Source: Bacteriovoracaceae bacterium
GTDB taxonomy: Bacteria; Bdellovibrionota; Bacteriovoracia; Bacteriovoracales; Bacteriovoracaceae
Direction of reading: 5' to 3'
Length of the DNA: 64,000 bases
Assembly: GCA_013141065.1 (NCBI GenBank)
Contig: JABFRR010000016.1
Location: 64,147 to 128,146 of the forward strand
Shown: in pieces, positions 3,252 to 64,000 of the stretch
Layout: every line of letters starts with the position of its first letter
Position numbering within the stretch: the first letter of the stretch is position 1
Made by a program: the position numbers and the translations under genes
The notes under the pieces: model-generated
Databases searched by the model: none
Told to the model about the DNA's origin: nothing
Seen by the model: the letters and a program-made list of their open reading frames with translations, nothing else

Positions 3252-3277
3252 GATTTCTCTAAGCTTCCAACCATATT

Positions 3278-4285: not shown

Positions 4286-4325
4286 ACTTTTTTAATCCTT
4301 TAAAAAAGAAGTCATTAAAATGCAA

Positions 4326-4361: not shown

Positions 4362-4393
4362 AAAATATAAGTCAACGAAATGATTGAATATTT

Positions 4394-8609: not shown

Positions 8610-8611
8610 TT

Positions 8612-9601: not shown

Positions 9602-9712
9602 TTGGTGCCGTTTGATTCACTTTTATCGAACTAATAATTCAGCTTTATGGAATATCTTTTTTTTTGTAATTTGATAGATTTATCATGAGGATTTTTATAA
9701 GGAGCACTAACT

Positions 9713-11572: not shown

Positions 11573-11575
11573 GAT

Positions 11576-12919
11576 CTATTTTTTCTTTTTAAGCGTTTTT
11601 TCTAGTGCCTTAATCATGATGGCCGCGTCTGGTGTTGGGTAGCGCTTATATAATTCATCTGTGATGGGACGAGGCTCGGCCCCTTTTTCTTTAAATTTCA
11701 TAAGCTCTAATACGAAATTATGGGCGATGATAAAAATTTTTGAGATATCAGGAAGTTTTTCAATGACGTTAGAAAAACCTTTTCCATTAAATCCACCATG
11801 GTGATGGCGAATGATTTCATCTGCCCCAAGCGGAGCTTCTGGATGATTATTGACTAAATCAGCAGCATCATGGGCATGATTAAAAACGAGTTCCCAATCA
11901 GATTCGTTAAGCTCTGCTCTTTCAAGCTCCTCAAAAGAATTAATTTTAGAATACTCTTCATGTTCAGCAAGTTTTATGTCGTGAAAGAAAGCAGCAAAGG
12001 CCACTTTTTCATAGGAGAATTGGTCTTTCAGTTTTAAGTTTTTTATCATCTCACAAGCTACGATTGAAGTCATGTGACAACGTTGATAAAGCACACCTGT
12101 TTTAGAATTGATGACTTTATGAAGAAGACTCGACATCTCAGGAGATTTTTCGAAATTCTTTACCATGTTGTTGATGATTGCATCAGTTAGTTGAATAATC
12201 TCACTATTAAAACCTAATTTGATAATTTCTTTAGTGGCAATCTCGTAAGACTCTCCCATAAGTTGATTTTTTTTTGATTCACTCAATTCACTTGATTCCA
12301 TTTTTTCGACAAGTTTGTTTGAAAGAAAGATGGCAAAGTTTCGATGATTTTCTTTAGGTATAAAAAAATAATCCAATCCTTGAAGTGTATATCTTTCAAT
12401 TGAATCTTTTGAAAATGAATCCCCACTGTGAATTCTTTTTACGTATTGATATTCTGTTGGAGACTTTTTAATTCGAATAAATACATCACAATTAACTGAT
12501 TCGAGATTGAGAAAATAACTAACAGGAACTGAAACATAATCTGGAATGATTTTTTTTGCGAGGGATTTTTCATTAATACCTAATACACGCGCCGAAAGTT
12601 GAATCACTTTTTCCCAATCAAGAATATTTTCTAAGATAATTGCATTTTTATTTTTTTGAATGAGGGACTTACCAATGACAATCATGTTGATGTCTAAATT
12701 ATGATCTAATAGATACTTGTTAATTTCTTCAGCCGTGTCTTCGTCATCAACTTGTGAAATTGTAACGATTAAATCAATTCCAGGAAGTATTGCGAGTAAA
12801 CTAATTGTTTCTTGAGCGTTGTTGCGATGGATGAGATCCACGCCGAGAAAACTAGTGAGATTTACAGAGAGCAGATCATTCATAGTTTTATTGCTTTCGA
12901 TTAAAATGACCTGGGCCAT
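11576..12919 (-). CDS. HD-domain regulator with degenerate HD-GYP motif
   Basis: This 447-residue protein has an N-terminal receiver-like region (about 1-120, starting MAQVILIESNKTM), a middle segment, and a C-terminal HD domain. The HD residues are in AAFFHDIKL, and the later HHHGGFNGKGFS corresponds to HHExxDGxGYP of HD-GYP cyclic-di-GMP phosphodiesterases, with the GYP changed to GFS. It may therefore be a variant phosphodiesterase or a non-enzymatic sensor. It heads a two-gene unit with the flavoprotein. Confidence 0.75.
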   Translation of the reverse strand: MAQVILIESNKTMNDLLSVNLTSFLGVDLIHRNNAQETISLLAILPGIDLIVTISQVDDEDTAEEINKYLLDHNLDINMIVIGKSLIQKNKNAIILENILDWEKVIQLSARVLGINEKSLAKKIIPDYVSVPVSYFLNLESVNCDVFIRIKKSPTEYQYVKRIHSGDSFSKDSIERYTLQGLDYFFIPKENHRNFAIFLSNKLVEKMESSELSESKKNQLMGESYEIATKEIIKLGFNSEIIQLTDAIINNMVKNFEKSPEMSSLLHKVINSKTGVLYQRCHMTSIVACEMIKNLKLKDQFSYEKVAFAAFFHDIKLAEHEEYSKINSFEELERAELNESDWELVFNHAHDAADLVNNHPEAPLGADEIIRHHHGGFNGKGFSNVIEKLPDISKIFIIAHNFVLELMKFKEKGAEPRPITDELYKRYPTPDAAIMIKALEKTLKKKK

Positions 12920-46881: not shown

Positions 46882-49800
46882 TTAAGGAAATGGCTTTCCA
46901 ATTTTTTCAAACGACTCACTTGCAGAAATAACTTGGGGAGCTTTATTAGTACTCTCACCATAGTTCTCAACATCCATTAGTCGCCAAATCTTAGATTGAT
47001 CTAAAGTCAGGCCAGGGAAAACAGGAAAGTTAGATAAAATCGTATGAGTAGAATTAGCTGCCATAAGTTCATTCGTAGCTGATACCGAATACAATTGTAT
47101 TAGTGGTGAACAGGCACCTTGATTAGAACTATAATCGCACAAAGAATTTGTCGTCGAATTAAGAAATGAAGCTGTAATAATTGCCGGAGGGTTAATCTCC
47201 CCAGGATTAAAAATAAGATTAGAGACATTTGTGCTTAGTGCGTTTTGATCCGGAACTAAACTATAGCTTGCGGGATTAAAGTTAGCAAAATTAATATTTA
47301 CTGCACTTTTAATATTCTTAATAATTCCAATATTAGAATTTTTGGCAACAATTACTCCGACAAGACCCAAAGTAGGCTGAAGATAATTTGTAACAGATAA
47401 TTTGCCAGCGACTTCAACTTCTTTTAATAAACCATGATTAATTCCTACTGCACTCCCTAAATTACTTATTGCTCGAGTATCGTTAGAAGGAGTAGTTGAT
47501 GTTCGATTCAATTCAATATTCGCTTTAACACCAGATATTTCACCAACATTTAGCCCCGAAACTCCACCAATCACTTCATCGAAACTAGTAGGATTTGCGA
47601 GATTATAGATTTTTAATTGAGTGTTAATTTCATTATTTAAAATTTTTCCACTAGAAGAGTTTCTTCCAACAATACTGCCAAGAGTGATAAATCCATTTAA
47701 AGACTTATTAACAACTTCTATTTTGGAGAGACTAATATTAACATTATCGATAGTTCCATCATTAACCCCGGCCAAAATACCAAATACTGAATCTTCAACT
47801 TGAGTCAATAGAGGAGAGACTGTAATTCCTAACAAATTCAAATTCTTTATAAGTGAAAAGTTGTTTAAACTAGAAAACAATCCAGATGAGCCATTGTTAG
47901 TTATATCTAATTTAAAATTAGAAAGTGTAAAATTATTGCCATTAAGACGATAAATACCTTGTGAAAATGAGGGTAAAACAACATCTGCAAAATTTAAGTC
48001 TTTTTTGAGAGAATAAAAATTTCCTGCAGTCATATTATTAAACTGAGTTACTGAACAAATAACATAGGGATTTAAAATTGTTCCGGCACCTGTAGGAGAA
48101 GCACTGAACATAAGAGAACCAGTACATTCCCGTGCTAAATAAGGAACTTCACTTTCCTTAGTACTTTCCCACTTCAATCGAGGATAGTCATGGCCTGGAG
48201 TTGGCATCTCCCAAGTAGCTAGTGAAAAGGAAACATACTGATCGTAATTGAAAATATTTGCATCGCCAACTATTTCTGTTCCACAAATAAAATTATTTGC
48301 ATTACTTCCAAAGTAATATGAATTTGGACATGAACCGCCAGGTGCCCACCCTACGAGCCCACCAATATTTGTATCACCAGGAATGCTCACTTTTTTAAAA
48401 GAATCCGCACTAAATGAAGTTAATAAATCTAAGTTTGTTGTAGCCTTACCGACAAGCCCTCCAACATAGGCTCCAGAAATACTATAAGTCGAACTTAAGT
48501 GAGAATTTGAATAACTGTCCTCGATCGTCATCTTATTTAAGAAACCAACAATACCACCGAGATATTGTGATCCTTCAATTTTATTTGCCTTGATAACTAA
48601 TTTTTCAAAAATAACATTTCCCTTAGTTCCTGTATTAAACACTTCACCAGCAAATCCACCGGAATGAGAAGCATAATCAGAATTAGAACTACAAGATGAG
48701 GAAACATCCCCTTTAAAAGAAGATTCACTGACTTTAAACACTTCAGTTCCCGTATAATAACTTTCAACTTTTCCAACGACCCCGCCAACATAATTGGGTG
48801 AGCCACAAGAAATGATTCGACTATTCACTTTAGCGTTTACATGGGATTTTAAAACTGCATTTTGATATGCAGAATTGTTATTAAACATCTTACCCGCAAG
48901 CCCACCTACATATTGTTTGCCATTAACTGCTCCAAAGAATTTAACATTTAAAAATTCAGTATTATGGGCCTCTCCAACGACTCCACCTGAGTGATTGGCC
49001 GTATCACATAAATTTACAATCTGATTAAAAGTAATATTTTTAATTACAGTTTGATCAGTTATTCGAAATATACCTGCTTGATTATTAATACCAGCTATGC
49101 ATTTTAATCTTCCATTTTCAATTTTTAAATTATTACCATTAAACACACCCGCATAAGGTGAGGAGCCTGATTGAGAATCTCCTCCAATCATAACGATAGG
49201 CCCAAAGTTAAAATTTAAATGAGAAAGAACATCGAAGCTTTTACTTTGATTAGTGGAAAAATTTGTCCCACCAATGCTATTCCATTGCTCGGGTGTGCAT
49301 ATCCCGTAGGGATGAAAAGATGTTCCAAATCCAGTAGCAAAAGACGTACTCGCCAATCTAGGGCCTCGACATACATCACCCGCGCTAGTTTCAACAAAAT
49401 AACGACGCTTACCTGCTACTAGGTTATCAAAGAATTTAATTTTTGGAGAATTTGCAGCATATGAATCGACACCTTTTGCCCCATCACATGCGGCTTCAGA
49501 ATAGAAAACTTCAATGTCTGTCGCTACATCATTTGGGATTTTAACCAGGGTAAGTGTACTCGCCATACTTGAGTCCTCTTCACCACCTGCAGTATTTTGA
49601 CTCACTTTAATACAAAAAGACCTAAGGGCATTTCCAGAACGAATAAAAGGCTTTGCGTCTAGTTTAATCTGTTCCGGAACACTTATACGCATCCAAGTCG
49701 CTAGACCTTTATTAGAATTTGCTTGGGAACAATCACCAATTGTGTCTGAAGAAACGAGTCCAAGATTTTTACAACTCGTAATTTTTGGTGAAAGAAATAC

Positions 49801-49925: not shown

Positions 49926-50945
49926 TTAACTTACTTTTTTAATTTCGACATCATCTTTTCTTTTAGGATGATTCAAAAATACTTCATCAATCCAATCCCA
50001 GTTTCTTGTGTTTTTTGACCAACGACTAGGATTTAATAATTTTGCCTTAATATAAACTTCTTTTCTTAATTGTAAAACTTTTTTATCTAATCCTTCATGT
50101 CTTGAAGTGGGTGTTACAAATTTTATTCCACTATGAAGGTGTTTATTATTGTACCAATCTACAAAAACTTTACACCAGTCCCTGGCTTCGTCTAACGAGT
50201 TAAATCCATTAGCTGGATATTCTGGACAGTATTTTGTTGTTTTAAATAATGCCTCTGAAAAGGGATTATCATCACTAACTGACGGCCTACTAAATGAAGG
50301 CATTACACCAAGTTCTTGTAACGTTGCAAGCATTGTTGCACCCTTCATTGGTCCACCATTATCAGAGTGAAGTATAATTTGTCCTTTTTTTATCTTCTCC
50401 ATTTTACAAATTTTATCTACTATTTCTGCTGACAATTCCATTGATTCTAATTCAAAGACTTCACGGCCAACTATTTTTCTACTAAAAATATCCATAAATA
50501 AATATAAATAATAAAACTGACCTCGTATCGGACCTTTCATATAGGTAATATCCCATGACCAAATTTCATTAGGCCCTTTGCAATTAAAGGTGCCGGCCGA
50601 TCCATTGTTCTCCCTTTACTTTTTCCTCTGTGCAGCCAGTAACTTTTCTTTTTTTAAAACTCTATAAAAACTTGATTCACTTCCAATAAATATTCCCTCG
50701 CTGTCGGCAAGCATTGGTACTATTTCCCACGGAGATTTATCTCTATATTTTTCTGAAGTAGCTATCTTTATAATTTTTTGCCTCTCAAACTCTGAAAGTT
50801 TATTGGCAGGAATGGTCTTCGCCCATTCCTTAAATCAATAAGATTTTTTCCCAACGTTCTATTGTTTTGATACATAATCCACAATCTTTGCTGGCTATTT
50901 CTTTTCTGCAGCCATTTAAGTTTGCTTCTTTAATTAATTCAATAC
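49926..50945 (-). pseudogene. IS3-family transposase OrfB (rve integrase core), frameshifted
   Basis: The catalytic DDE core is present: Asp in WSWDITYM, Asp in LHSDNGGPMKG, and Glu in FSEALFKTTKYCP, followed by the family's YNNKHLHSGIKFVTP. The first part (IASKDCGLCIKTIERWEKN..., WEIVPMLADSEGIFIG) is separated from the core by a frameshift near 50580-50595, and another disruption lies near 50840. Only the last 204 residues form one frame (50540-49926). Confidence 0.85.
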
Positions 50946-50959
50946 AAATTGCTCTTAAG

Positions 50960-51457
50960 TCAGAGCACACTAATTGTCCTCGTCCACTCCAAACAAAAGA
51001 TGGCTTTTTTTAGAAGTACAACTCTCGCTGCAAATTCTGCAAGTGCCTTATCTTTTCTTTTAATTCTCTTATAAGTTCTTCTTCTTTTTCGTAGCTCAAA
51101 GAGTTCAGGATCCTTTCTAGGCCTTCCAGCAGCAGACTTGAGCCCATTGGTTAAATCTGTTTTCCACTGCTCTAGATTGGCCATAAAAAGCCCTTCTCTA
51201 CGAAGAAACTCACCAAGAGTAAGCTCATCCATTGTTGCAGTCTTAATAACAGCATCTAGTTTTTCTTCAGGTGTCCACTTGTCTACTGATTTTGTTTTTT
51301 TTGTTTTCATGGAACTAGACATACCATACATTTTACTCCAACCAAATATTGTTGATACTGGGAGTCCTAATTCTTTGGCTGCCTTACTAGGTCCTAATTT
51401 AATCACTTTTTTAACTGCGGCATCTTTAAATTCTTTGCTGTAAACCTCTGAACGCAT
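50960..51457 (-). pseudogene. IS3-family transposase OrfA (helix-turn-helix)
   Basis: This 165-residue frame starts MRSEVYSKEFKDAAVKKV with the HTH of IS3 OrfA (GPSKAAKELGLPVSTIFGW). A run of seven A on the coding strand (51006-51012) sits near the end, where IS3 elements often shift into orfB. Here the orfB frame is reached only by +1, and the tail after ARVVLLKK is poor, so I treat it as damaged. Confidence 0.7.
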
Positions 51458-52094: not shown

Positions 52095-52745
52095 TTATTT
52101 ATGAACAATTAAATCTTTCATATCAAAACGAACTTTTTTAGCTTCAGCGTATTTATCATCACTTGCTCTATATCCAGCTGGGCAAGCACAAACAGTCTTC
52201 CAACCAGTACCTGTAAGCCCCAAAATCTCATCGTATTTTACAGGGTCAATACCTTCAAAAGGACAAGTATCCACACCAACAACCGCGGCAGTTGTCATAA
52301 AGTTTCCTAAAGCAATATAAGCCTGTCTCGCGGCCCATTCTGCAATGACTTCAGAGCGCGGGCCATTAACTAAATCGCCAATCATCATTTTCTTGTAACC
52401 TTCAAGTGTAGTGATGTCTTGATTACGAACCTTCGCAGTTTGTTCGATAAATTTAGTGATATGAGCTTCATCAAGTTTTTCTTTAATAACAAATACCACA
52501 TGATGAGAACAATCTGTGACTTGAGACTGGCCCCATGAAGCAGCTTTTAATTTTTCTCTTAATGGCATATCTTGAACAATGATAAATTTCCACGGCTGAA
52601 GACCGTAAGAAGAAGGAGTTAAAACAAGCGCTTTTTCAAGTGTTGACCATGTTTCTTCATTAATTTTTTTTGTTGGGTCGAATTTTTTAGTAGCGTATCG
52701 CCATTCAAGAGTTTCGATAACTTCTTTATTTGATAAGTTTTTCAT
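52095..52745 (-). CDS. NAD(P)H-dependent nitroreductase family flavoprotein
   Basis: This 216-residue FMN protein has the nitroreductase pattern: WRYATKKFDPTKK near 14-26, TPSSYGLQPWKFIIV near 38-52 and the GIDPVKYDEILGL region near 168-180. It resembles NfsB/NfnB-like reductases that reduce nitro compounds or quinones; the natural substrate is unknown. It is a separate unit with its own terminator, 17 bases after the BtaA-like gene. Confidence 0.87.
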   Translation of the reverse strand: MKNLSNKEVIETLEWRYATKKFDPTKKINEETWSTLEKALVLTPSSYGLQPWKFIIVQDMPLREKLKAASWGQSQVTDCSHHVVFVIKEKLDEAHITKFIEQTAKVRNQDITTLEGYKKMMIGDLVNGPRSEVIAEWAARQAYIALGNFMTTAAVVGVDTCPFEGIDPVKYDEILGLTGTGWKTVCACPAGYRASDDKYAEAKKVRFDMKDLIVHK

Positions 52746-52762: not shown

Positions 52763-53851
52763 TTAGGGGTTAAACTTATAGACCTTTATTTCATACATCT
52801 GAACCTTTTCAAATTCAAGTAATTTGGTGTGTGACTCAGTAATGTCTATGAAGCCCTCTAGATTTGATTCTGGAGATCGAAGATAATTTCTTAAAACAAT
52901 AATTGCTCCAGGAAGAAGACCTGGCTTAATTTTTTGCATAAAATCCCGTTCTAAATCTCCTCCAAAATAAGAAGGTACATCACTAAGAGATAAAAAATCG
53001 TATTGATTGAGGCCTCGATTAAGATGCGTCACAAAATCTTCTTTTACATAGTGAACATCTGTCTTGGAAACATGCACGCGTCCATGACTCTCCTCGCTAG
53101 CTTCAACAGGAACTCCGTGGAGGGACTTTATTTTTCCATAAAAACACAAGTGCAGGAAAAAACTTTTCTGGGCCAGGTCTGTAGTAAAAAGACGATTATA
53201 AGCATTGAAATAGTAATCAAAATGAGAAAGTGGAGAATTTTTTTTAATAAAATCTCCTTTATACAAAAGAGCATTGAACATCGCTTTGTTACCCAAAAGA
53301 TGTATCAGGGCCTTCCATCTTTTCATGGGAAAAGAATGCTGGTAATAATAAATTTGGTCTTCGAGATTATCAAAACGCATGATACGATCATACTCAGAAC
53401 CCATGATCACTCGACATACTTTTGCAAATACAGCAAATGTGGACTCCCATTTTCCTAAATAAAGTAAAGAATTAAATTGTATTTCATGAAAAACTTGCGA
53501 TAAAAAAGTGTAGGCAGGTGAAGACAATTTGAGTGATGTAAAAAGCTCTCGGCGTCTACTTTGATTATTGTCATCAGAATAAGGAAAATACCCCCAAAAC
53601 AATAAAAAATCAGAATGGGTAAGCTCTCTATACGTAGAAAGCCGCAATTCGGCTAAATAAAGTTGTTCCTGAGATAAATCTGAAAGGGTGAGATCAAGAG
53701 CTCCCTTATGCATTAATGGAATTGAGCGTCCCCCACTGCCACAGATTGAAAATATTTTCTTCGGAAGAATTTTTTTAATTAACTCAATTTCAACTGAAGT
53801 GTCTTCATTGCCCAAAGTATAGTTGAGACCACTAAAATATTTTTGTGTCAT
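52763..53851 (-). CDS. BtaA-like S-adenosylmethionine:diacylglycerol 3-amino-3-carboxypropyltransferase (DUF3419)
   Basis: This 362-residue protein begins with YFSGLNYTLGNED and has the glycine motif SICGSGGRS at about 35-43, followed by LTLSDLSQEQLYLAELR, both typical of DUF3419/BtaA. BtaA transfers the aminocarboxypropyl group of SAM to diacylglycerol, making homoserine lipid, which BtaB then methylates to a betaine lipid. No BtaB-like gene is in the window. It follows the reductase fusion with a 36-base gap, and its operon includes a diacylglycerol kinase-like gene. Confidence 0.75.
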   Translation of the reverse strand: MTQKYFSGLNYTLGNEDTSVEIELIKKILPKKIFSICGSGGRSIPLMHKGALDLTLSDLSQEQLYLAELRLSTYRELTHSDFLLFWGYFPYSDDNNQSRRRELFTSLKLSSPAYTFLSQVFHEIQFNSLLYLGKWESTFAVFAKVCRVIMGSEYDRIMRFDNLEDQIYYYQHSFPMKRWKALIHLLGNKAMFNALLYKGDFIKKNSPLSHFDYYFNAYNRLFTTDLAQKSFFLHLCFYGKIKSLHGVPVEASEESHGRVHVSKTDVHYVKEDFVTHLNRGLNQYDFLSLSDVPSYFGGDLERDFMQKIKPGLLPGAIIVLRNYLRSPESNLEGFIDITESHTKLLEFEKVQMYEIKVYKFNP

Positions 53852-53887
53852 GATAAATTCTCGCTTAATTATTTCTTGTTAACTTTT

Positions 53888-55933
53888 TTAATTGGCAATT
53901 CTTTTTAATTTCAATATTGCATGTTCCCTGCATAAATCAAATTCTGCATCAGTTATAAAACCGCTGTGCCCCATGATTTGCGAAAGCCTCACTCCGTGCT
54001 CGCCAGCGAGTCGATCAATTTCAATAACTTTTTCATAATTGATATTTCTTGAAAGAGTGAATGATTCAAATTTTCCTTCCATCGCAAGTAAGGCCGTCTC
54101 TGCTAGGCAAGCATAAACAATATTACCCTCAAGTCCAAGATCAATAGTAAATTCAACATTGCCAGGTAATGTGACTTCACCACTGGCAATAACTAAAACA
54201 TCAGGTCGCCTAATAGCATCTTCTTCTTTTATATCAAATGGCCTAGAAACATCACAAATTACACATCCTGGCTTCACTTTCATAATATCTAGTATTGATT
54301 TACCCGCACCAGATGTTGTTGTAATAATCAAGTCACATTCATGAGAATAGTTGTCAGCATCGGTTGAAACTTCAATTTTTGCCAATGGATTAATTTTTAA
54401 TATCTCTTCTTTTAATTCAATTAATTTGTAGGCCCGTGGAGCTACGATTATGATCTTCTTCCAAGTTAAGGCCAATATTTTTGCACTGACGGCACCAATA
54501 CTACCAGTTGCTCCCACCACCATGACAGTGCCTTTCATCATGGACTCATCTTGCACAACAAAACCTAACTTTAAGACAGCAAGTCTGGCCGCCCATAAAG
54601 TTGAAGCTGCAGATAATGAGTTTCCAGTTGTGACAGGAATTGGGCTTAATCGGTCTATCGTCACTCCCGCGTCGCCCACAATTTTTGTATAGGCACCAAG
54701 TCCCATTATTTGTGATCCAGCATCATATGCTTTTTCACATAATTTAATTATTTTACTATAAATGGCATCGGGATTGGCCTCTAATAATTTCTTCGGTGTC
54801 TCGGTGACAGTATAAATGAGTCCCTCTACTTTATTACCATTTTTCTCGCTGACGATTCCACCAATTTTTCCATAATAAAAACCTGGTGAGTAGGCAGCTA
54901 CATCTTCAGCAATCTTCTCAAATGGTTTGGAATATTTTTTTATTGGTCTTAGTAAAGGATGCTTAAAAAGATAACTTTTTGAAAGTGGATGAATAACAAA
55001 TGAAAACTTGGTTACTTCATCCGTTTTTACTTGAATCGACTTCACTTCGGGAGAAAATTTAATTTCTTCAACTAATTTAATGACATCGTCTTGATTAACA
55101 AAAACACCGCTTCCTTTTTTAATTTGAATAATACCTTCAAGAATGGAATAGTTAATCTTTGGATAAATGGATAACTGAGGTAAACAAACCATCACCTCTT
55201 TAACTTGTGCCAGCCTCAGCTTTTCTTCGAACTGCGGTGAAAGAATATCAATGACAAGTGATTTACCTTTTAAATGAGAGAGATTGAGAAAATTAATATT
55301 AGCTTCATTTCCGACTAAAACATTACAGCTTAAAAATTCAATGAGTGCTCTATTTTTAAACATAGACTTGTTGTCAAAATCTGGGACATGCTTTTTTTGA
55401 ACCTTCATTGATCTTAAAACAGGAGCAAGCGTTTTAATAAATCTCTCCAGAGTCTTTGGACTATGAAGATTAAAAGGTAATTTCATCAAAAAAAAGGGAT
55501 CGGCCATGACTATTTCATTTCCCATTTCACAAAGTGGTTCAACAAAACTAATTTGCAGTGCTGCAGAATAAAAACCAATTTTTTTATTATTAAAAAACTG
55601 AGGTGTTTTTATGGCAAATCGTCTTAAAGCATATGGAATATAAACGTCTTTAATAATTTGCCCATCCACGATTGGAGTATGCCTGGCGACACTTTTAAGT
55701 CGTAAGGTATCTGGATGGAGAAAATGGCCTTTTTTAAATTTTATTTTTTGTGGAATACCACTTAAACAAATGACATCACAAAGGCCATCATATTTTTTAA
55801 TGAGCCCTTCAGTGAGTTCAACATCAAAGTTGGTCGAGTACTGAATCACTCGATAGGTTTCACCAAAGAAGTCTATTTCTTCATCAAAATTATTGTAATC
55901 TTGAGCAAAGGCCAAAGAAAGAATCGTTTTCAT
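53888..55933 (-). CDS. Fatty acyl-ACP reductase-like protein with unknown N-terminal half, 681 aa
   Basis: Residues about 310-681 resemble cyanobacterial acyl-ACP reductase (AAR): GLGAYTKIV (411-419), TTGNSLSAAS (435-444), NADPH motif GATGSIG (474-480) and YACLAETALLAMEG with Cys609 at the position of the acyl-binding cysteine. AAR reduces acyl-ACP to fatty aldehyde. Normal AAR has about 340 residues, so the first 310 are an extra region. That region has no signal peptide or known motif; segments like KSLVIDILSP and NVLVGNEANINFLN suggest an alpha/beta fold. Neighbours are an SDR and a BtaA-like gene. Confidence 0.72.
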   Translation of the reverse strand: MKTILSLAFAQDYNNFDEEIDFFGETYRVIQYSTNFDVELTEGLIKKYDGLCDVICLSGIPQKIKFKKGHFLHPDTLRLKSVARHTPIVDGQIIKDVYIPYALRRFAIKTPQFFNNKKIGFYSAALQISFVEPLCEMGNEIVMADPFFLMKLPFNLHSPKTLERFIKTLAPVLRSMKVQKKHVPDFDNKSMFKNRALIEFLSCNVLVGNEANINFLNLSHLKGKSLVIDILSPQFEEKLRLAQVKEVMVCLPQLSIYPKINYSILEGIIQIKKGSGVFVNQDDVIKLVEEIKFSPEVKSIQVKTDEVTKFSFVIHPLSKSYLFKHPLLRPIKKYSKPFEKIAEDVAAYSPGFYYGKIGGIVSEKNGNKVEGLIYTVTETPKKLLEANPDAIYSKIIKLCEKAYDAGSQIMGLGAYTKIVGDAGVTIDRLSPIPVTTGNSLSAASTLWAARLAVLKLGFVVQDESMMKGTVMVVGATGSIGAVSAKILALTWKKIIIVAPRAYKLIELKEEILKINPLAKIEVSTDADNYSHECDLIITTTSGAGKSILDIMKVKPGCVICDVSRPFDIKEEDAIRRPDVLVIASGEVTLPGNVEFTIDLGLEGNIVYACLAETALLAMEGKFESFTLSRNINYEKVIEIDRLAGEHGVRLSQIMGHSGFITDAEFDLCREHAILKLKRIAN

Positions 55934-55966
55934 AAATTCTCAAAAAGTAAGTGTTGATTAGAGAAT

Positions 55967-56977
55967 TTACTGAAATAGAATTTTTTTGAAATCACTGTAA
56001 GTGCTTTCTTCAATTTCTGGCAAATCCTCTAAAGTACTCGACTTATCGTAAGAAAGTTTTGAAAACATAAATGGTAATACTTCTTTAGGAATACCCGCAA
56101 TTTTTAGTATTGAATCATGGATCTTATTTTTCTTAAAGGGAATAAATTCTGCTTTAAGTCCAAATTTTATTTTAACGTCAGCAAGAAACTCTTTTAAATT
56201 TGGTAGGTCATTACTGATAAGATGATAAGTTTTTATTTGATTTTCAAACTTATCTCTTGAAATGAGTAAGTCAATAAACCGAGCACAGTGATCAACTGGA
56301 ATAAGTGGGATTTTCGCTTTTGGGTTAAAACTTAATGGAATAAATGGCAATTTTTTAATGAGACCAATATGTTTTTTAATGGCCTCTAAAAAATAGTAGG
56401 GCCCATCGGTTTTAGGCATTTTTGATCCACTCGAATCCCCAATAATGATTCCAGGTCTAATGATTCTTGTGACAAATTTTTTCGAAAGATTTTCCCTAAT
56501 CAATTGTTCAGCTTGATATTTGGTTGCCGAGTACGAATCTTCAAAGATCGACCTCGCTGGTAGTGTATTTTCATCCAAAAAATATGTAGTGGGGTCTCCA
56601 ACTGCAATTGTGGAAATGGCATAAAAGGCTTTGAGTCTGCTCATAGATTTTAATAAATGAAGTATATTTTGAGTCCCAACAACATTTTGTAAAAAGCAAT
56701 CAGAGTAGCTTGCCTTTAAATCATAAAGAGCTGCAGCGTGAACGACAATATCTATTTGAGACAAAATTTTAGATCTTTTATTCTCATCAATAGTGAGAAC
56801 ATCAAAATGTGTAATATCACCTTTAAGTAAAACTACATTTCCAAAATGAGAGAATTGACTTTCAGATAATTCAGTATCTTTTCTGGTCAGGACATAAACA
56901 GTACTAAAATGCTTTGAAAAATATTTAACCAAATATTGACCAAGAAAACCTGTTGCACCTGTAAGAAGTATATTCAT
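55967..56977 (-). CDS. Extended SDR / NAD-dependent epimerase-reductase
   Basis: This 336-residue protein has the nucleotide motif GATGFLG at 7-13, GDITHFD, HAAALYDL and the catalytic Y149-SAT-K153. It resembles NAD-binding 4 fatty acyl reductase-type and OleD-type SDRs. Position between the reductase fusion and a diacylglycerol kinase gene points to a lipid or aldehyde substrate. Its start lies seven bases after the DAG kinase gene's stop, in the same operon. Confidence 0.8.
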   Translation of the reverse strand: MNILLTGATGFLGQYLVKYFSKHFSTVYVLTRKDTELSESQFSHFGNVVLLKGDITHFDVLTIDENKRSKILSQIDIVVHAAALYDLKASYSDCFLQNVVGTQNILHLLKSMSRLKAFYAISTIAVGDPTTYFLDENTLPARSIFEDSYSATKYQAEQLIRENLSKKFVTRIIRPGIIIGDSSGSKMPKTDGPYYFLEAIKKHIGLIKKLPFIPLSFNPKAKIPLIPVDHCARFIDLLISRDKFENQIKTYHLISNDLPNLKEFLADVKIKFGLKAEFIPFKKNKIHDSILKIAGIPKEVLPFMFSKLSYDKSSTLEDLPEIEESTYSDFKKILFQ

Positions 56978-56983
56978 ATAACC

Positions 56984-57949
56984 TTATGATAAAGTAACAA
57001 TCTGGCCGCTAAAGTTATTTAAATCTATCTGATCTTTTGGAGAAAAAACACTTAAAAAATTAGGATGACATCTGATATTCCATTCCCTTTCAGGTTTAAA
57101 AACTTCACCATCTCCAAAAAATGCTAAATTCTCTGCCCCATCTAATAGCGAAATTTTAACTTGTTCCGTTTCAAAACTAAAAAGGTTTTTATCATCTTTC
57201 GGATAAGCACCATTCATAATTTTTAAAATACAATTGATTAATTCCAAGCGATTTTCATGCTTAAAAATTGTCACATTCATTTTTCCATCTTGATGATTGG
57301 TGAAAGGAGCAACCTCAAAACTTCCGCCCAAGACTGGTTGATTATTGACCAATATAAGTGGAGCATAAAGAACTTCACTAAATTCAAATGAGTCTACTTT
57401 AAATTTATAGCTGGCAATTTCTCGCGCCAACATTTTTTTGGCAGCAAAAAAAGAATAAATATTTTTTCCAGAAAATTTCATTAATCCTTTAAACTGCGGA
57501 TAATTTTTCCTTAGTTCGTTTATATCCCTCGCAATCTCAGAAGCAAATCCCAGCCCTCCATTGGTGGCCATAAATGTTCCATTAATATTAATAAGATCAA
57601 TTTTTTTTCTAGCATTTACCCTAATGGTTTGAGTGATTTTCTTTATATTAGAGCTACACCCCATCATTTGAGCAAAATCATTCGCCGTTCCTCCTGGAAC
57701 AACTAAAAGTCCTATGTCGGTTCCCGCCAATTTTTGAATAATGGAGTGAACTGTTCCATCCCCTCCAATTGACAAAATAGCATCCACATTGGCCTTAACA
57801 TCCAGATCTAAGTTGTGATAAAGCTCATCAAGAGTTTCAGAAACCGGATAACTTATTTGGCTTCTAAAAAGAGCATTATTAATCATCCCTTGCCAATCTT
57901 GACTACCATTTGAGGCCCGATGATTTAAATAAACTGATATGTTTTGCAT
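56984..57949 (-). CDS. Diacylglycerol/sphingosine kinase family protein (DagK/YegS type)
   Basis: This 321-residue kinase has the family motifs GGDGT at 62-66 and PGGTANDFA near 86-94, then NGGLGFASEI and DGKMNVTIF in the second domain. These enzymes phosphorylate diacylglycerol or related lipids at a free hydroxyl with ATP. It is the first gene of the minus-strand unit DAGK-SDR-reductase-BtaA. The IS50-like element lies just upstream and may have replaced its promoter. Confidence 0.88.
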   Translation of the reverse strand: MQNISVYLNHRASNGSQDWQGMINNALFRSQISYPVSETLDELYHNLDLDVKANVDAILSIGGDGTVHSIIQKLAGTDIGLLVVPGGTANDFAQMMGCSSNIKKITQTIRVNARKKIDLININGTFMATNGGLGFASEIARDINELRKNYPQFKGLMKFSGKNIYSFFAAKKMLAREIASYKFKVDSFEFSEVLYAPLILVNNQPVLGGSFEVAPFTNHQDGKMNVTIFKHENRLELINCILKIMNGAYPKDDKNLFSFETEQVKISLLDGAENLAFFGDGEVFKPEREWNIRCHPNFLSVFSPKDQIDLNNFSGQIVTLS

Positions 57950-57995
57950 AATGCCTAAAGCTTAAAACAAAGTAGGCAGCTTTTGTGAAAACTAA

Positions 57996-59610
57996 CTGAC
58001 TTTTCCCCATAATTACATGGTCGAAAATAAAGTGTAAAAAGATTGGTCGGCCTCAGCGAGGATAACTGGCTAAAAAATCATAAAACTAACTGATTCGCTT
58101 CTTAAAGGGTGCTACTCGGTTTGTAAATTACTTATTGATTGGTGTTGTATCGGGAAGATTTATTAGAATTAAAATTGATATTTTTCTTTGAGGTATCTGA
58201 ACATTTCTACTTTTGCTTCAAGCTTTATTAATCCTCGCCAAATACTAACCGTCCCGGCTCTCCGTCGCTTTTACGGCCATTAAAGCCCCCATCTTAGCGA
58301 CAAATCGTAGAACTCTCTAATCGTTATTCTTTGATCATCAGATATCTTATTTTCTATTTTCAAAACGAGTGATTCTTCTTCTGAAAAAGAAAGACTTGAA
58401 TCTTCATCTGGAGCTGCTTCTGCTAAATGTTTAACGTAATAAATTCTCCACGCAATAACTGAAAATAATGTGATATATTTTTCTAGTCGCTCAAATGTTC
58501 TTAATGATGCTCTCTCAACTTTGCATCCGCCATCTTTTAAAATTTTAAAATAATTTTCAATGTGCCAGCGTTTCTTATAATAATCAATGACTCTAGAAGC
58601 ATCTCCAAAATTTTTCAATGGCAAACTTGTCAGCAAGATCCAGTGCAATCGATCTTTCTCTGCAACTTCCCCAGTCGTACTTATTTCTAATATATTTAAC
58701 ACCACTTTTCTTTTTACAGAAGTAAGTCCATTAAGTTTGAAGCTAGGATCAAAAAATTCTATCTCACCGTACTTTACAATTGCATCCACATCTTTTTAAC
58801 TTCGTATGAAATATTTTGAATTCATGATCAGTTTTTTTTTTGTTCAAATGCCAGCGAAGATAATGATCTCCATTTTCGATTATTCGATCGTGCTTGGATC
58901 TAATTATAAAATCTTTATTATTTTTTATTAAAGTAAATAGAACTTCAAACTGATCTGCCTCCCTGTCAGCGACGTGAATGAGTTTTGTGCCTTTAGGACA
59001 ATGCTTTTCTGTTTCTAAAATTGCCTCTGCCCAACGATCACTTTCTTTCTCCCACATATCATCGTATGCACGACTCCATGTTGATAAGGCCATAACTCCT
59101 AGAGGTACATCATTGATATTTACAGCTAAACTATAATGTCCAATAAAACCATGAGTCTCTTGATCTCCAGCTTTTCCACCAATATTACCTAAGCCTTTTA
59201 TAGATCTTTTTGAATTGAAGCTAAAAAGCTAGAATCATGAATCATCAAAGCTACAGATTCATTTTGAAGTCTCGAAGAAGTAGACTCACGATGCTCAAAT
59301 AATATTTTATCTGACGAGAAATTCTTGTGACTGAAGAGACGATAAGTTGCTTTTTTATCTGCAAAGTTAACTACCACTTTATTAATAGTTTCGTCAGGAC
59401 GTCGTGAAAAAATATTCGCCATAGAGAAAAAGCGATCGCGAAGTCTTTTATCTCCAAATTCAATATTCTTAAATTCTTTTTCTAGCCAATCGCTTTCACT
59501 CATTTAATAAAAATAATTGCAACGATGTGGATGGCCAAGCAAAAAAATCTAACAGGGCCTTACATTTGAAAATGTCAACGAGTTAAAGAAAACTTGTGGG
59601 TAATTGTTAG
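57996..59610 (-). mobile_element. IS4-family element of the IS50/Tn5 group, 1,615 bp
   Basis: The ends are 19-base inverted repeats: CTGACTTTTCCCCATAATT at the left (57996-58014) and the complement of CTAACAATTACCCACAAGT at the right (59592-59610), 14 of 19 alike. Both resemble the Tn5 outside end CTGACTCTTATACACAAGT. The target duplication is a perfect 9-mer. A broken Tn5-type transposase fills the middle. The left 260 bases (58015-58279) hold no gene. It sits between the two divergent halves of the lipid locus. Confidence 0.9.
58280..59503 (-). pseudogene. Tn5-type (IS4 family) transposase, two frameshifts
   Basis: The three parts are in order: N-terminal domain (WLEKEFKNIEFGDKRLRDRFF, KKATYRLFSH, MIHDSS with the first Asp), middle with the VADREADQFEV motif (second Asp), and C-terminal YKKRWHIENYFKILKDG with the catalytic Glu of the YREK motif. 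Frames change near 59195-59215 and again near 58790-58800. A full product would be about 405 residues, shorter than Tn5 transposase (476). Inactive as it stands. Confidence 0.88.
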
Positions 59611-59708
59611 GAAAACTAATCTGTAACCTGAAAAAAATTCAACAAGTGTCTAAAAATTAAACACTCTAACACTTCAGAATTTCTAAATTTAACCCGAAAG
59701 GATGAAAT

Positions 59709-60476
59709 ATGAAAATTTTAATCGTTAGCAGTGAAGTCACCTTTGTGCCCAATAATTATAGGGGCTTTCTTGAATCCCTCCTTTCTTCTCTCAAAACAGA
59801 GATGAAAGAAGGTAAGTTAGATGTTCAAATAGCTCTTCTCAAGAACAATTCTTTAATTCTTCCAATAAAAGGACTTTTTTTTGCCTTAATTGGTGCAAGA
59901 AAAATAGGCATGCACTTATTAATGAACTCACTCGCTGCGAGATTTGATGACAAAAAAAATTTAACTCAACATTTTTCAGTCAAAATCCACTATTTTGAGA
60001 GTCCAAATTCTGATGAATTTATTAATTTTTTAACGACCCAAAAAATTGATCTCTTAATTAATGCACGAACAAGATTTATCTATAAAAATAAAACACTCAA
60101 AATCCCAAGCATCGCTTCATTAAATATTCATCACGGACTACTGCCTGATAATCGTGGAACTATGTGTGATTTATGGGCCCTCTATGAAGACCGTCCAACT
60201 GGTTTTATAATTCATAAAATGGAGAAAAAAATAGACGACGGTGTGATTGTCCGACGAGTTCAAACAAGTAATGCTGGTGAAAAAAAGGATTATGCCAAAT
60301 TAATTGAAGAAAGTGCGCACCTTGAAGGCAAAGTGACAGCACAATTAATTAGGGAGCTTAAATTGTCTCAAAAAATACCGATAGAAATGCAAAATATTTC
60401 AACTAATGTAACTTATAAGAAGAATCCAAGTTTTTGGGTTATAAGAAAAATTTTAGCTAAAGGGATAAAGATATGA
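59709..60476 (+). CDS. Formyltransferase-fold protein
   Basis: This 255-residue protein has the formyltransferase signature: N139 and H141 in SLNIHHGLLPDNRG, and D177 in IHKMEKKIDDG, matching the Asn/His/Asp triad of GART and methionyl-tRNA formyltransferase. Such enzymes use 10-formyltetrahydrofolate to formylate an amine. It lacks the C-terminal domain of Fmt. Its stop overlaps the next gene's start (ATGA-type), so the product likely works with the hydrolase-ligase fusion. The substrate could be an amino-bearing lipid head group or sugar; this is inference. Confidence 0.75.
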   Translation: MKILIVSSEVTFVPNNYRGFLESLLSSLKTEMKEGKLDVQIALLKNNSLILPIKGLFFALIGARKIGMHLLMNSLAARFDDKKNLTQHFSVKIHYFESPNSDEFINFLTTQKIDLLINARTRFIYKNKTLKIPSIASLNIHHGLLPDNRGTMCDLWALYEDRPTGFIIHKMEKKIDDGVIVRRVQTSNAGEKKDYAKLIEESAHLEGKVTAQLIRELKLSQKIPIEMQNISTNVTYKKNPSFWVIRKILAKGIKI

Positions 60477-62884
60477 AAAAAATTGAATTTCACCATGGAT
60501 CCCCTGGTTCAAAAGAAGACTTTAAACTTTTAAGTCAAAACTTGTCAGACTTGTATGAAATCATGGCAAAGAATAGATTTGAAACAAAAAATACTTCCAC
60601 TAATTCAAATTCAAATGACTCTATTGAAATTCAGGTAGGATTTTCTTTCGGTTGTTTAAGTGCTCTAGAAACGGCCGCGAGTAGACCGGAAACAAAACTT
60701 GTCATATTCATAGCTCCATATTTATTTCCTGAAAATAGACCAAGCGGAATAATGAAAGGATTAATCAAAAATGATTTTTTTAAAAACAATCTACTTTCAA
60801 GACTAGGTAAAAATAAAATACATGAAAAAATGATTGAAGGCTCACTTCCGAAGTCCCTTCCAAGCGAATACCTAAATCAATTAGACATATTTGCTCGTGC
60901 TGACGTCTTAGCACACTCTATCCTTGAAAAAGAAGTTGATGACTTAAAAACAATATCTCTTTTAGAAAAGCTGAAAAATAAAAATATACCAGTCCTTGTC
61001 ATAATTGGGGAAGAAGACAAAGTCAGTTATGAAAAAAAACAAAAGGCATTAGAAATTGATCCACTTCTCATTTATAAAAATATTAAAATAAAAACACTAA
61101 AAAATGCAGGTCATGCATTACTATGGACTCATCCTCTTGAAATAGCAGACCTCGTAAAAACAGAAATTGGATTAAATATGAATGCAAAATTAGGCTACTA
61201 TCCTGGAAAGAATGAACATAACAATGTAGGGAGTTTTCTAAAAGATCACCTCCAAAAATTTCCACAACGAAATATTCTCTCTTGGGTTAATCCTAATGAT
61301 CTAAAAAGCTGGAATGGTGATATCAATACATCGATACCTCACCAGTCCGTAAAAGTTGCAGAATTGGATCATTTAGTGTCTATATTGGCTTCTGAATTTA
61401 TTGATCTAGGTATCAAAGAAAATGATAGAGTCATTCTTTTTCTTCCGATGTCTTTATATATGTATGCGGCGATGTTTGCACTTCAAAAAATGGGAGCAAT
61501 ACCCACTTTTCTAGATTCATGGGCAAGAAGAGATCAAATGGGAGTGAGTGCAAAAGTAGCGAATCCAAGTGCCATGATTAGTGCCGATCGTGCATTTTGC
61601 TATCTTGCCGATGTTCCAGAAATAGCCCAAATCCCAATTAAAATTGTTGCTGGTGAAATCACTTCTCAAATTACTTATAAAGCAAGACTTGAAATTTTAC
61701 TTCAAGGAAAATCCCCTGCTCCTATATCTCCAGTGGAAAAAGAGCATACTGCACTCATAACATTTACCACTGGTTCGTCTGGAACCCCAAAGGGAGCAGA
61801 CCGGAGTCATCGCTTTTTAGCGGCCCAGCACTACGCGCTTAATCGGCACTTACCCTACGAATCGAATGATAAGGATCTACCAGTCTTTCCTATTTTTTCA
61901 TTAAATAATCTTGCTGCCGGAGTTGAAACTGTAATACCAGCAATCGATGTTGGGATGCCTTCCGAAAACGATGCACTCGTTCTCTATTCTCAAATGAAGT
62001 CTGCCGGTGTCACTTGTACGACCCTTTCTCCTTCTTTATTTAATTCTGTTGCAAATTTTTGTATTGATAAAAAATTAAATCTGAATTTTTTAAAAAGAAT
62101 AGTCACTGGTGGGGCACCAATTTCACGTGATGATGTAAAAAGAATGAAGAGTGTAGCGGCCAATGCAGAAATATTGGTTCTCTATGGATCAACAGAAGTT
62201 GAACCAATGGCACATATAGAAGCAAGCGAAATGTTAGCAGAAATTCAAGATCCAGACAGTGAAATCGTCGAAGCTGGAGTAAATGTTGGTCATCTTGATA
62301 GTGGATTAAAATACAAATTTATCACAATCAATAAAGATGCTCAGTATGTGAACCAAAATAGCGACTGGGATAAAATTACCGTGGCCCAGGGAGAAGTTGG
62401 TGAGCTAATAGTTGCCGGAGAACATGTTTGTGAAAAATACTTTAATAACGAAGAGGCTTTTTTCAGAGCAAAAATTCGAGACCATGAAGGAGTCGTTTGG
62501 CATCGAACCGGAGACTTGGGAAAATTAGATGCATCTAATAACTTATGGATTGTAGGAAGAGTTCACAATGCCATTAAAAGACAAAATCATTATTATTTTC
62601 CAGTAAGAGCTGAAATCATATTAAAAAAATTCCCATTCATCGCCAGAGCAGCATTTTTAGGTATTCCTGATAAAGATCTTGGAGAGAAAACTTATGCGGT
62701 CTTTTCTACAAATGACAATTCTATAAATTTAGATGATGCCAAAAAAGAAATTAAAAGAGTTCTAGAAAAAAATCAATTTCTCGTTGATGAAATACTTCAC
62801 ATTGATGACATTCCAATGGATCCACGACATCATAGCAAAGTTGAGTATGAGGTTCTAAAAAAGAAAATATTAGGTGAAATCTAA
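60473..62884 (+). CDS. Alpha/beta hydrolase - acyl adenylate ligase fusion, 803 aa
   Basis: Residues 1-235 are an alpha/beta hydrolase with oxyanion HHGSPGS, nucleophile S58 in GFSFG, D182 in GEEDK and H214 in AGHALLW. Residues about 265-803 are an ANL adenylating enzyme: P-loop FTTGSSGTPKG (431-441), YGSTEVEP, WHRTGDLG and a C-terminal lid with GRVHNAIKRQ. The segment DLPVFPIFSLNNLAAGVETVIP resembles the OleC ligase group. No carrier domain is present. It could load or proofread an acyl chain, the hydrolase acting as thioesterase. It overlaps its neighbours on both sides by a few bases. Confidence 0.8.
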   Translation: MKKIEFHHGSPGSKEDFKLLSQNLSDLYEIMAKNRFETKNTSTNSNSNDSIEIQVGFSFGCLSALETAASRPETKLVIFIAPYLFPENRPSGIMKGLIKNDFFKNNLLSRLGKNKIHEKMIEGSLPKSLPSEYLNQLDIFARADVLAHSILEKEVDDLKTISLLEKLKNKNIPVLVIIGEEDKVSYEKKQKALEIDPLLIYKNIKIKTLKNAGHALLWTHPLEIADLVKTEIGLNMNAKLGYYPGKNEHNNVGSFLKDHLQKFPQRNILSWVNPNDLKSWNGDINTSIPHQSVKVAELDHLVSILASEFIDLGIKENDRVILFLPMSLYMYAAMFALQKMGAIPTFLDSWARRDQMGVSAKVANPSAMISADRAFCYLADVPEIAQIPIKIVAGEITSQITYKARLEILLQGKSPAPISPVEKEHTALITFTTGSSGTPKGADRSHRFLAAQHYALNRHLPYESNDKDLPVFPIFSLNNLAAGVETVIPAIDVGMPSENDALVLYSQMKSAGVTCTTLSPSLFNSVANFCIDKKLNLNFLKRIVTGGAPISRDDVKRMKSVAANAEILVLYGSTEVEPMAHIEASEMLAEIQDPDSEIVEAGVNVGHLDSGLKYKFITINKDAQYVNQNSDWDKITVAQGEVGELIVAGEHVCEKYFNNEEAFFRAKIRDHEGVVWHRTGDLGKLDASNNLWIVGRVHNAIKRQNHYYFPVRAEIILKKFPFIARAAFLGIPDKDLGEKTYAVFSTNDNSINLDDAKKEIKRVLEKNQFLVDEILHIDDIPMDPRHHSKVEYEVLKKKILGEI

Positions 62885-63783
62885 TGTCAAAAATGAATAG
62901 ATGGTGGATATTTACAAAAGAGAGATTTGCACCAACTTCGCATATGGCGATGATTGTTGTCTTTTTGTTTGCACACCTACTTGTAATTAATGCTGTTAAA
63001 TCTGTGCGAGCGACATTTTGGCAGGACATTCTTTTGCTTATTGGAGTGACCGCATTTTATTTTAAACTTCGTCTCTATGATGAAGTCAAAGATTATGAAT
63101 TAGACGTTGTTATTAATAAGCATCGCCCACTCCCTCGAGGTCTTCTAAATCATCAAGACATGTATTCAGGAATGATCACTTGTATTGGCATAGAAGTTTT
63201 TACTTTTTCTTTAATGGGTTTTAATGCACTTTTAGCAATATTCATCGCCATTGCTTATTCTCTTTTGATGTATAAAGAATTTTTTATTAAAGAAAAAATT
63301 CGCCCACACTTAACTACCTATGCTCTCCTTCACACAATAGTTACATCTGTATTAAGTTTTGCTATTTTTAGTTTTCTCTCACAAGAAAGCATCATTAATC
63401 TCATTCAAAATAAAACTTTGCTGTCATTTGCAATACTAAACTGGCTCTTATTTAATATATTTGAATTTGGTCGTAAAACATTTTCAACGACAGAAGAACG
63501 AGACCAAGTAGATACTTACTCAAGTCTCTTTGGCCGCACAGGAGCAGTCTTAATGGTGGTCTCTCAAGCATTGATTGCTCACCTTCTAACTTTAAACCTT
63601 GCAGGCACAAATAAAAACGTACTTATATTCATGAGTTCATTACTTTTCATTATACTCATTCTCATTTCAATTTCTTATATTATAAAAAACACTATACCAA
63701 CGGCCAAGATCTACCGTCATTTTAGCTCAGCTTACATTATTTTATTTTATTTAACTCTTATACTTTCGCATATTATTCCATAG
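62884..63783 (+). CDS. UbiA-family membrane prenyltransferase-like protein
   Basis: This 299-residue protein has eight to nine hydrophobic segments. The aspartate motif RLYDEVKDYELD (D66, D70, D74) matches the first metal-diphosphate site of UbiA enzymes, and DEKDYE-like spacing is typical. The second Asp motif (ERDQVDTYSSLFGR near 201-214) is present in altered form. The substrate is unknown: a prenyl or other diphosphate donor joined to a lipid-like acceptor. Its ATG overlaps the ligase stop. Confidence 0.75.
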   Translation: MSKMNRWWIFTKERFAPTSHMAMIVVFLFAHLLVINAVKSVRATFWQDILLLIGVTAFYFKLRLYDEVKDYELDVVINKHRPLPRGLLNHQDMYSGMITCIGIEVFTFSLMGFNALLAIFIAIAYSLLMYKEFFIKEKIRPHLTTYALLHTIVTSVLSFAIFSFLSQESIINLIQNKTLLSFAILNWLLFNIFEFGRKTFSTTEERDQVDTYSSLFGRTGAVLMVVSQALIAHLLTLNLAGTNKNVLIFMSSLLFIILILISISYIIKNTIPTAKIYRHFSSAYIILFYLTLILSHIIP

Positions 63784-63796
63784 GAAAATGTTAACC

Positions 63797-64000
63797 ATGA
63801 AAGATTCAAAAAATACTTACTACACAGTCACAACCAAAAGTACCCATTACTTTGCCAAAAAAGAATCTGGTGGAAAAGGCCACAACCTCTACTTACTTGG
63901 GTCTAATGGAATAAATGTTCCAGAATTTATCACACTCCCACCTCAGTATTTTGAAGAATTTAAAAAACAATCGGGAATTACTGATTACTTACAAAATATT
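63797..64000 (+). CDS. PEP synthase / pyruvate phosphate dikinase-like protein, N-terminal fragment
   Basis: Only 68 residues are inside the window. KKESGGKGHNLYLLGSNGINVPEFITLPPQYFEEF matches the start of the PPDK ATP-grasp domain (GGKGxNL...G..VPxxF). Such domains phosphorylate pyruvate or a related acceptor, and are also found in biosynthetic clusters acting on other substrates. ATG 63797 is preferred over 63788, which is only two bases from the AGGA. It follows the UbiA gene by 13 bases, so it is in the same operon. Confidence 0.7.
   Translation, partial: MKDSKNTYYTVTTKSTHYFAKKESGGKGHNLYLLGSNGINVPEFITLPPQYFEEFKKQSGITDYLQNI

Follow-up and report, generated by a model that had tools for sequence, protein, structure and literature searches.

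A conserved eight-gene set with an exchangeable half, possibly for an undescribed lipid-like compound, in Bacteriovoracaceae and other Bdellovibrionota

The closest described systems

Pathways in which an acyl thioester is reduced to an aldehyde have been described for the prodigiosin (pig) and tambjamine (tam) clusters; according to passages of two reports, PigE and TamH form the aldehyde from a thioester, which for TamH has to be bound to acyl carrier protein (ACP), the coenzyme A (CoA) thioester not being used (PMC8341465, PMC9594044). In both clusters, a reductase of this kind, similar to the cyanobacterial acyl-ACP reductase (AAR), accompanies an ATP-dependent condensing enzyme of the PigC/TamQ type. 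The same combination is found at a locus of eight genes that we describe here from a Bacteriovoracaceae bacterium (Bdellovibrionota), at the right end of a 64,000-nucleotide stretch of DNA referred to as the window (assembly GCA_013141065.1, contig JABFRR010000016.1, positions 64,147 to 128,146 of the forward strand). As far as our searches show, this is an undescribed lipid-like cluster built from enzyme families each of which is known singly. Read as a whole, the locus would make a fatty-aldehyde-derived amino lipid or lipid-like metabolite, a proposal that we judge about equally likely to be right or wrong, any exact structure being much less sure. No description of the gene combination was found in the open-licence literature, judged from titles, the beginnings of abstracts and term counts, with subscription journals mostly outside this scope.

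The eight genes form two tight divergent units, and the ORF positions of the window bear out what a first-pass annotation, made from the letters alone, had stated about their presence, their arrangement and a spacing within each unit of overlaps or gaps of 36 bases or fewer. The left unit, on the minus strand, consists of a DUF3419 protein of the BtaA-type aminocarboxypropyl transferase family (52763..53851), a two-part reductase of 681 amino acids with an N-terminal domain and a PigE/TamH/AAR-type thioester reductase domain (53888..55933), an extended short-chain dehydrogenase/reductase (SDR) of the thioester-reductase/FAR-like kind (55967..56977) and a lipid kinase of the diacylglycerol/sphingosine kinase family (56984..57949), separated by gaps of 36, 33 and 6 bases. 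The right unit, on the plus strand, consists of a formyltransferase-fold enzyme (59709..60476), an alpha/beta hydrolase fused to an AMP-dependent ligase (60473..62884), a UbiA-superfamily membrane transferase (62884..63783) and a dikinase of 904 amino acids (63788..66502), with overlaps of 4 and 1 bases and then a gap of 4. Only 63788..64000 of the dikinase gene lies inside the window; looking past position 64000, as had been suggested, the gene is seen to run on to 66502 (L002:1435-4149 in the adjoining stretch).

The likeness to the tam cluster goes somewhat further, since passages of PMC6667630 also place an AMP-binding protein, permeases and an ABC (ATP-binding cassette) transporter there. 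By contrast, the window reductase has no transaminase, no bipyrrole genes are recognised in the set, and the locus adds DUF3419, the lipid kinase, UbiA and the formyltransferase. Betaine lipids are made by BtaA and BtaB, and the window locus has DUF3419 in common with this pathway, but it lacks an N-methyltransferase and holds seven further enzymes. With the cyanobacterial AAR of alkane synthesis it shares the reductase domain and the catalytic cysteine, whereas the window enzyme has an extra N-terminal domain and is closer to PigE, and no aldehyde-deformylating oxygenase is recognised in the window set. An OleC-like ligase, an SDR and a hydrolase are shared with the olefin (Ole) cluster, although the thiolase of the latter is missing. 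Rifampin phosphotransferase (RPH), like the window dikinase, has an ATP-binding domain, a phosphohistidine domain and no phosphoenolpyruvate (PEP) barrel; however, its match to the window protein is broken in the middle, and dikinases of the window type usually stand beside UbiA. To judge from the conserved set, the locus is neither a known prodigiosin/tambjamine cluster nor a plain betaine-lipid operon.

Conservation of the set and exchange of its right half

The phylum was surveyed in 290 genomes, with the reductase at E ≤1e-20 and the dikinase at E ≤1e-60, and the two were found in 89 and 112 genomes, respectively. When two genomes having only a transaminase-fused reductase are left out, 87 reductase genomes remain; the dikinase is present in 83 of them (Fisher p 5e-42 over the 290 genomes, a value that ignores common descent) and gave no match in the other four (G177, G194, G251, G261). 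Reductase and dikinase lie at most 16 kb apart in 60 of the 83, on different contigs in 22 and far apart in one. The full eight-gene set occurs at one locus in at least 21 genomes from four families (12 in f1, five in f6, one in f7 and three in f8), in divergent order in the 12 f1 genomes, as a single run in G022 (f7) and G054 (f8), and rearranged in f6, with kinase-SDR-reductase as the most constant gene order observed. A scan of named genomes with the reductase, by which alone the spread outside the phylum was covered, returned close relatives only: six loci, all titled Halobacteriovorax, Bdellovibrio, Bacteriovoracaceae or Bacteriovoracia (family f1 includes the Halobacteriovorax and Bacteriovoracaceae records). 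Four of these loci (L004, L005, L006, L008) agree with the window both in having the eight functions complete and in their divergent order, the other two (L007, L009) are interrupted by contig ends, and the flanking genes differ between the window and these loci.

The eight genes are one conserved set, beyond chance. The first-pass annotation had held that neighbours not conserved together in related genomes would speak against a common pathway, and this is not what was found, because the genes form one conserved set with at least 21 complete loci. An assembly of chance neighbours from unrelated pathways would fit the fact that the two halves stand apart in one genus, but it is contradicted by co-inheritance and by linkage across families despite rearranged order, so that we give it next to no chance.

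In many loci, the right half takes another form, made of a GNAT-family protein, a diverged ligase, UbiA and the dikinase, the formyltransferase and the hydrolase not being found there. Ligase and UbiA are joined in one ORF in three of these genomes (G129, G210, G265), and a cytochrome P450 accompanies the GNAT cassette in six (G132, G134, G210, G265, G170, G235), whereas the stretches fetched from G083, G129, G216 and G228 showed none. The exchange is also observed within the window's own genus, where G170 and G235 combine an orthologous left half with the other cassette. Among the 80 of 87 reductase genomes that were scored, 46 have the formyltransferase, 27 the GNAT protein, none both and seven neither; in a quick tree of 56 reductases (36 labelled formyltransferase, 16 GNAT and four unlabelled), the label changes seven times, at least five of these changes being forced by well-supported branches. 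Judged from sequence, the right half is an exchangeable cassette, because formyltransferase and GNAT never co-occur and switch at least five times, and the left half is a shared scaffold. Formyltransferases and GNAT proteins are unrelated enzymes that both usually acylate amines. As two unrelated amine acylators share one slot and are never found together, the product most likely carries an amine to which a formyl or another acyl group is added, a reading drawn from a pattern in which the whole cassette changes and not one gene.

Enzymes of the two halves

Residues 309-669 of the reductase match the PigE model with 158 bits and, among solved structures, PigE (4ppm, 110 bits) is closer than the cyanobacterial AAR (6jzq, 33 bits). 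Cys609 aligns with C294 of the cyanobacterial AAR, and all 41 aligned relatives, among them three transaminase fusions, have a cysteine at this position; the NAD(P)-binding glycine motif is kept in 40 of 40 distinct relatives. An AAR/PigE/TamH-type activity, from acyl-ACP to aldehyde, is supported by this homology and active site. The window enzyme has no Pfam match and hence no Pfam transaminase, a class III transaminase being present in L055 and L077. A PDB search with the structure model of the reductase gave hits, with low TM-scores, mostly to the nucleotide-binding portion of the C-terminal half, the first rows being a carmabin-pathway domain and the cyanobacterial AAR. The N-terminal domain, of about 308 amino acids, was assigned to no family. 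It also occurs as a lone frame of about 310-330 amino acids in five genomes (L061 8887-9837, L076 9592-10527, and in G267, G281 and G024), interrupted by stop codons in G281 and G024.

The remaining enzymes of the left half have well-preserved motifs. The SDR matches PF07993 with 130 bits and keeps YxxxK in 35 of 35 relatives and the strict glycine pattern in 28 of 35, and the lipid kinase matches PF00781 with 59 bits and keeps GGDGT in 34 of 35 and the DGE/DGD pattern in 35 of 35. The DUF3419 protein, the single match of this family in the whole genome, reaches 87 bits with PF11899 (cut-off 28.2), the domain of BtaA, and the motif NYxLxNED is found in 27 of 29 distinct full-length relatives. 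Given the link of DUF3419 to BtaA, which we take as established, a homoserine-type head group probably comes from this protein. Its presence in the 21 complete loci, as the sole genome copy, would also fit a betaine or homoserine lipid operon of the diacylglyceryltrimethylhomoserine (DGTS) kind, in which DUF3419 makes diacylglycerylhomoserine and the other genes are accessory. However, within the conserved set, to which the search was confined, there is no methyltransferase (BtaB), and the reductase, the dikinase, UbiA and the ligase are left unexplained, which makes such an operon improbable.

On the right, the formyltransferase matches PF00551 with 32.7 bits (cut-off 26.1), and its closest solved relatives are sugar N-formyltransferases. 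N139, H141 and D176, presumably the Asn-His-Asp catalytic triad of formyltransferases, are invariant in 11 of 11 aligned sequences, and the N-H-loop pattern is kept in 16 of 17 distinct relatives, L065 being the exception. The ligase has an AMP-binding match of 130 bits and belongs to the OleC-like clade, with 360 bits for PRK09274 (cut-off 478); none of the 25 models shown is matched above its curated cut-off. The hydrolase part is a weak point, with 19.2 bits against a Pfam cut-off of 27, while its separate relative in L004 reaches 34.4; hydrolase and ligase are separate genes in L004 and L005. Among the 15 ORFs filed as hydrolase-ligase fusions, which include three ligase-UbiA ORFs, RHxSK is kept in 15, the ligase P-loop pattern in 13 and the hydrolase motif GxSxG in 10.

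The clade of this ligase (207-218 bits with OleC models, cut-offs 850-900) and the weak OleD match of the SDR (50 bits) might suggest an olefin or beta-lactone pathway with a fused OleB-OleC. This candidate was rejected for the window locus, as there is no thiolase among the eight genes (the window hydrolase has a serine motif) and the same genome has a separate, far better-scoring oleA-B-C-D-like cluster, so that we regard it as very improbable. The second cluster (L104, G000:C9:84000-103500, at 8061-12595) contains a thiolase (PRK09258, 414 bits, cut-off 285), a ligase (PRK09274, 624 bits, cut-off 478; OleC models 497-508, below their cut-offs) and an OleD-like SDR (349 bits, cut-off 580), with an ORF that looks by eye like an alpha/beta hydrolase between these genes. 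The window ligase is not the olefin-type ligase of highest score in its genome: the same OleC model gives 497 bits for the L104 ligase and 207 for that of the window. A passage of PMC7064751 reports an active OleA from Halobacteriovorax marinus, which is consistent with the second, ole-like cluster.

UbiA is the other weak point of the right half by family score, with 27.7 bits for PF01040 in the window, below the cut-off of 34.2 (among its relatives, L008 reaches 34.3 and L006 has no match), and 69 bits for PRK13592 (cut-off 443). Its Asp-rich motif 1, DExKDxxxD, whose role we take from known UbiA enzymes, is present in 25 of 25 distinct relatives. The constant kinase-SDR-reductase order and the frequent UbiA-dikinase pair would be explained by a straight-chain analogue of prenyl transfer, which the intact motif would also fit. 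In it, the reductase and the SDR would produce a fatty alcohol, possibly 2-enoyl-derived, the kinase and the dikinase would phosphorylate it, and UbiA would form an ether with the resulting chain, which is not isoprenoid. However, the ligase-UbiA fusion would stay unexplained, and we know of no UbiA enzyme that acts on a straight acyl-derived chain and of no PigC-type enzyme that makes diphosphates; we consider this analogue unlikely.

The dikinase was called PEP synthase-like in the first-pass annotation, a label that has to be replaced. The protein does pass NF004881, an uncharacterised NCBI model named PEP synthase (1026 bits, cut-off 883), but only PPDK_N and the mobile domain were found in it and the PEP/pyruvate-binding C-terminal barrel is absent, for which reason a true PEP synthase was rejected. 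The RedH and PigC models match with 378 and 364 bits, each in one unbroken stretch, whereas the RPH model (351 bits) and classical PEP synthase match in two stretches. The protein is also related over most of its length (358 bits) to chain 5fbs and others; the PDB file is titled PEP synthase, and we take chains of this type to be rifampin phosphotransferase, which fits the RPH match. K30, R118, E301, Q313, R315 and H862, presumably the ATP-site residues and the swivelling histidine by comparison with rifampin phosphotransferase, are kept in 22 of 22 relatives. These matches identify a putative dikinase of the PigC/RedH/rifampin-phosphotransferase type that, with scores below the equivalog cut-offs (364 of 1300 bits for PigC and 378 of 1350 for RedH), is predicted to be related to the PigC/RedH ligase and not the same enzyme.

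One enzyme of the locus is nearest to PigE and another, if only curated enzymes with a known function are compared, to PigC/RedH, as would be expected for a pigment or alkaloid of the prodigiosin/tambjamine type, in which a ligase of the PigC/TamQ type condenses the fatty aldehyde from a PigE/TamH-type reductase with a partner. Wider relatives add to this likeness: transaminase-reductase fusions in the order of TamH are found at L055 9327-11999, L056 6095-8956 and L077 7694-10348, with two dikinases beside the fusion in both L055 and L056, and the tam cluster also holds permeases and an ABC transporter (PMC6667630). Nevertheless, the similarity is far below curated cut-offs (158 of 850 bits for PigE and 364 of 1300 for PigC), the window reductase has no transaminase domain, no bipyrrole genes are recognised in the conserved set, to which the search for them was confined, and we see no place in such a pathway for DUF3419, the lipid kinase, UbiA and the formyltransferase. 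A pigment or alkaloid of this type has, in our view, a small chance of being the product.

The wider relatives of the right half are diverse. In L056, UbiA and a CarS-like gene are present as well; L077 contains a class I/II aminotransferase together with a gene that looks by eye like a lipid kinase. In L109 and L116, the dikinase, a UbiA-like protein, a ligase and an SDR-like gene adjoin a polyunsaturated fatty acid (PUFA)-like synthase (KS/AT/ACP/KR), and L116 has two ICMT/PEMT-like proteins by Pfam. Given these loci, dikinase, UbiA and ligase look like a portable module for chains of different origin. Additionally, L119 contains an ORF (2783-5038) in which an HMG-CoA reductase domain is fused to an APH-type phosphotransferase domain, adjoining a dikinase.

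A tentative pathway and the surroundings of the locus

The families, active-site residues, linkage and cassette exchange are supported by sequence, and from them we infer the substrates, order, acceptor and product of the amino lipid pathway proposed above. The reductase would act on an acyl chain bound to its carrier protein and set it free as an aldehyde, and the SDR and the lipid kinase might then reduce and phosphorylate the product. As its family suggests, DUF3419 would add a 3-amino-3-carboxypropyl (homoserine-type) group from S-adenosylmethionine. The PigC-like dikinase may activate its substrate through ATP and a phosphohistidine, UbiA could join the activated substrate to an acceptor in the membrane, and the AMP-dependent ligase, with or without the hydrolase, would serve in carboxylate activation. 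The amine cap, to judge from the exchange, would be a formyl group in the window genome and an acyl group delivered by GNAT elsewhere, often with a P450 at hand. The first-pass annotation had guessed at an acyl chain that is activated, reduced to an aldehyde and joined to a modified glycerolipid whose amino head group is formylated or prenylated; the reduction of acyl-ACP to an aldehyde has gained support from the PigE/TamH/AAR relationship and Cys609, and the modification of an amine from the formyltransferase/GNAT exchange, while the glycerolipid acceptor, the prenylation and the order of steps stay a guess.

In a more specific version, the dikinase would phosphorylate the enol of the aldehyde or an alcohol derived from it, and UbiA would then attach the chain, which is straight and not isoprenoid, to an N-capped acceptor of the homoserine type, a version that we consider distinctly unlikely. 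If true, phosphorylation of an enol or alcohol would constitute a new bacterial route to vinyl-ether or ether lipids in which the head-group cassette is exchangeable. For Bdellovibrio and its relatives, whose way of life is to enter other bacteria or attach to them, envelope chemistry matters. An unassigned product, sound active sites, at least five cassette switches and presence in several families would point to an envelope compound that is undescribed as far as our searches reach, and would bring UbiA-dikinase pairs and PigC-like ligases into lipid rather than pigment chemistry, at a locus that is hidden by database names such as PEP synthase, prenyltransferase and unknown function.

Several observations weigh against the amino lipid proposal. 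The two halves stand apart in five genomes of genus g2 (G008, G055, G063, G082, G178). Moreover, the right half does not depend on this chemistry, because 29 genomes have a dikinase match and no reductase, some with other partners (PUFA-like synthase); similarly, G147, G038 and G015 have the GNAT cassette without the reductase (with DUF3419 in G147 and G038). No DUF3419 gene was seen in the stretches fetched from G030, G081, G164, G251 and G262, some of which are short contigs. L042, L043 and L044 lack the serine motif of the hydrolase, and L059 and L066 lack the P-loop pattern of the ligase. Neither structure model is of good quality (pLDDT 57 and 52), so that the N-terminal reductase domain and the central part of the dikinase stay without assignment. 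Finally, the limits used for the formyltransferase and GNAT labels (200 and 150 bits) were chosen after the scores were known, members scoring at least 210 bits for formyltransferase (next best 94) and at least 174 bits for GNAT (next best 111).

Export genes were found beside the locus in other genomes, where, of 43 stretches (duplicates and other loci included), 11 have an ABC ATPase, eight an FtsX/MacB-type permease, six a LolA-like carrier and six a possible outer-membrane protein. For one representative each, Pfam names the ABC ATPase, the permease and the LolA-like carrier; the fourth candidate has no Pfam match and its outer-membrane label was given by eye. None of these four occurs in the flanking sequence read on either side of the window's copy. 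As a LolA-like carrier and an ABC transporter stand beside the locus in several lineages, the product is probably bound for the outer membrane in those that keep them.

In the window, a nitroreductase gene (52095..52745, minus strand; PF00881, 80 bits) lies 17 bases behind DUF3419. It adjoins DUF3419 in five of eight short loci of the window genus (L016, L018, L019, L022 and L025, the window's own included; the eight are L016-L019, L021-L023 and L025, which reach only about 400 bases beyond DUF3419), and a terminator-like stem follows it at 52078-52057, such stems being no commoner than in shuffles. Because of its position in five of the eight loci and the stem behind it, the left operon of this genus may end with the nitroreductase, an optional part. 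The promoter and terminator scan of the window showed no excess (39 against 43.7 in shuffles and 6 against 7.0), and Rfam at gathering scores and a tRNA scan gave no match over the whole window.

The two units are about 125-190 bases apart in related loci, whereas three short, broken transposase-like ORFs (IS4-like by eye; 58280..59503, minus strand), which are not part of the pathway, lie between them in the window. These have no relative in the related loci of the named-genome scan, and expression in the window genome may, given their position, differ from that in related loci. Other transposase-like ORFs (integrase-type and helix-turn-helix type by eye), related between the two sides, flank the region at 49926-50540 and 50960-51457 in the window and at 14647-15978 in L002; the flanking ORFs are common to L003 and L002. 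Further to the left, at 46882-49692, the window encodes a 936-amino-acid protein with repeated GGLVG-like motifs, by eye possibly a surface protein.

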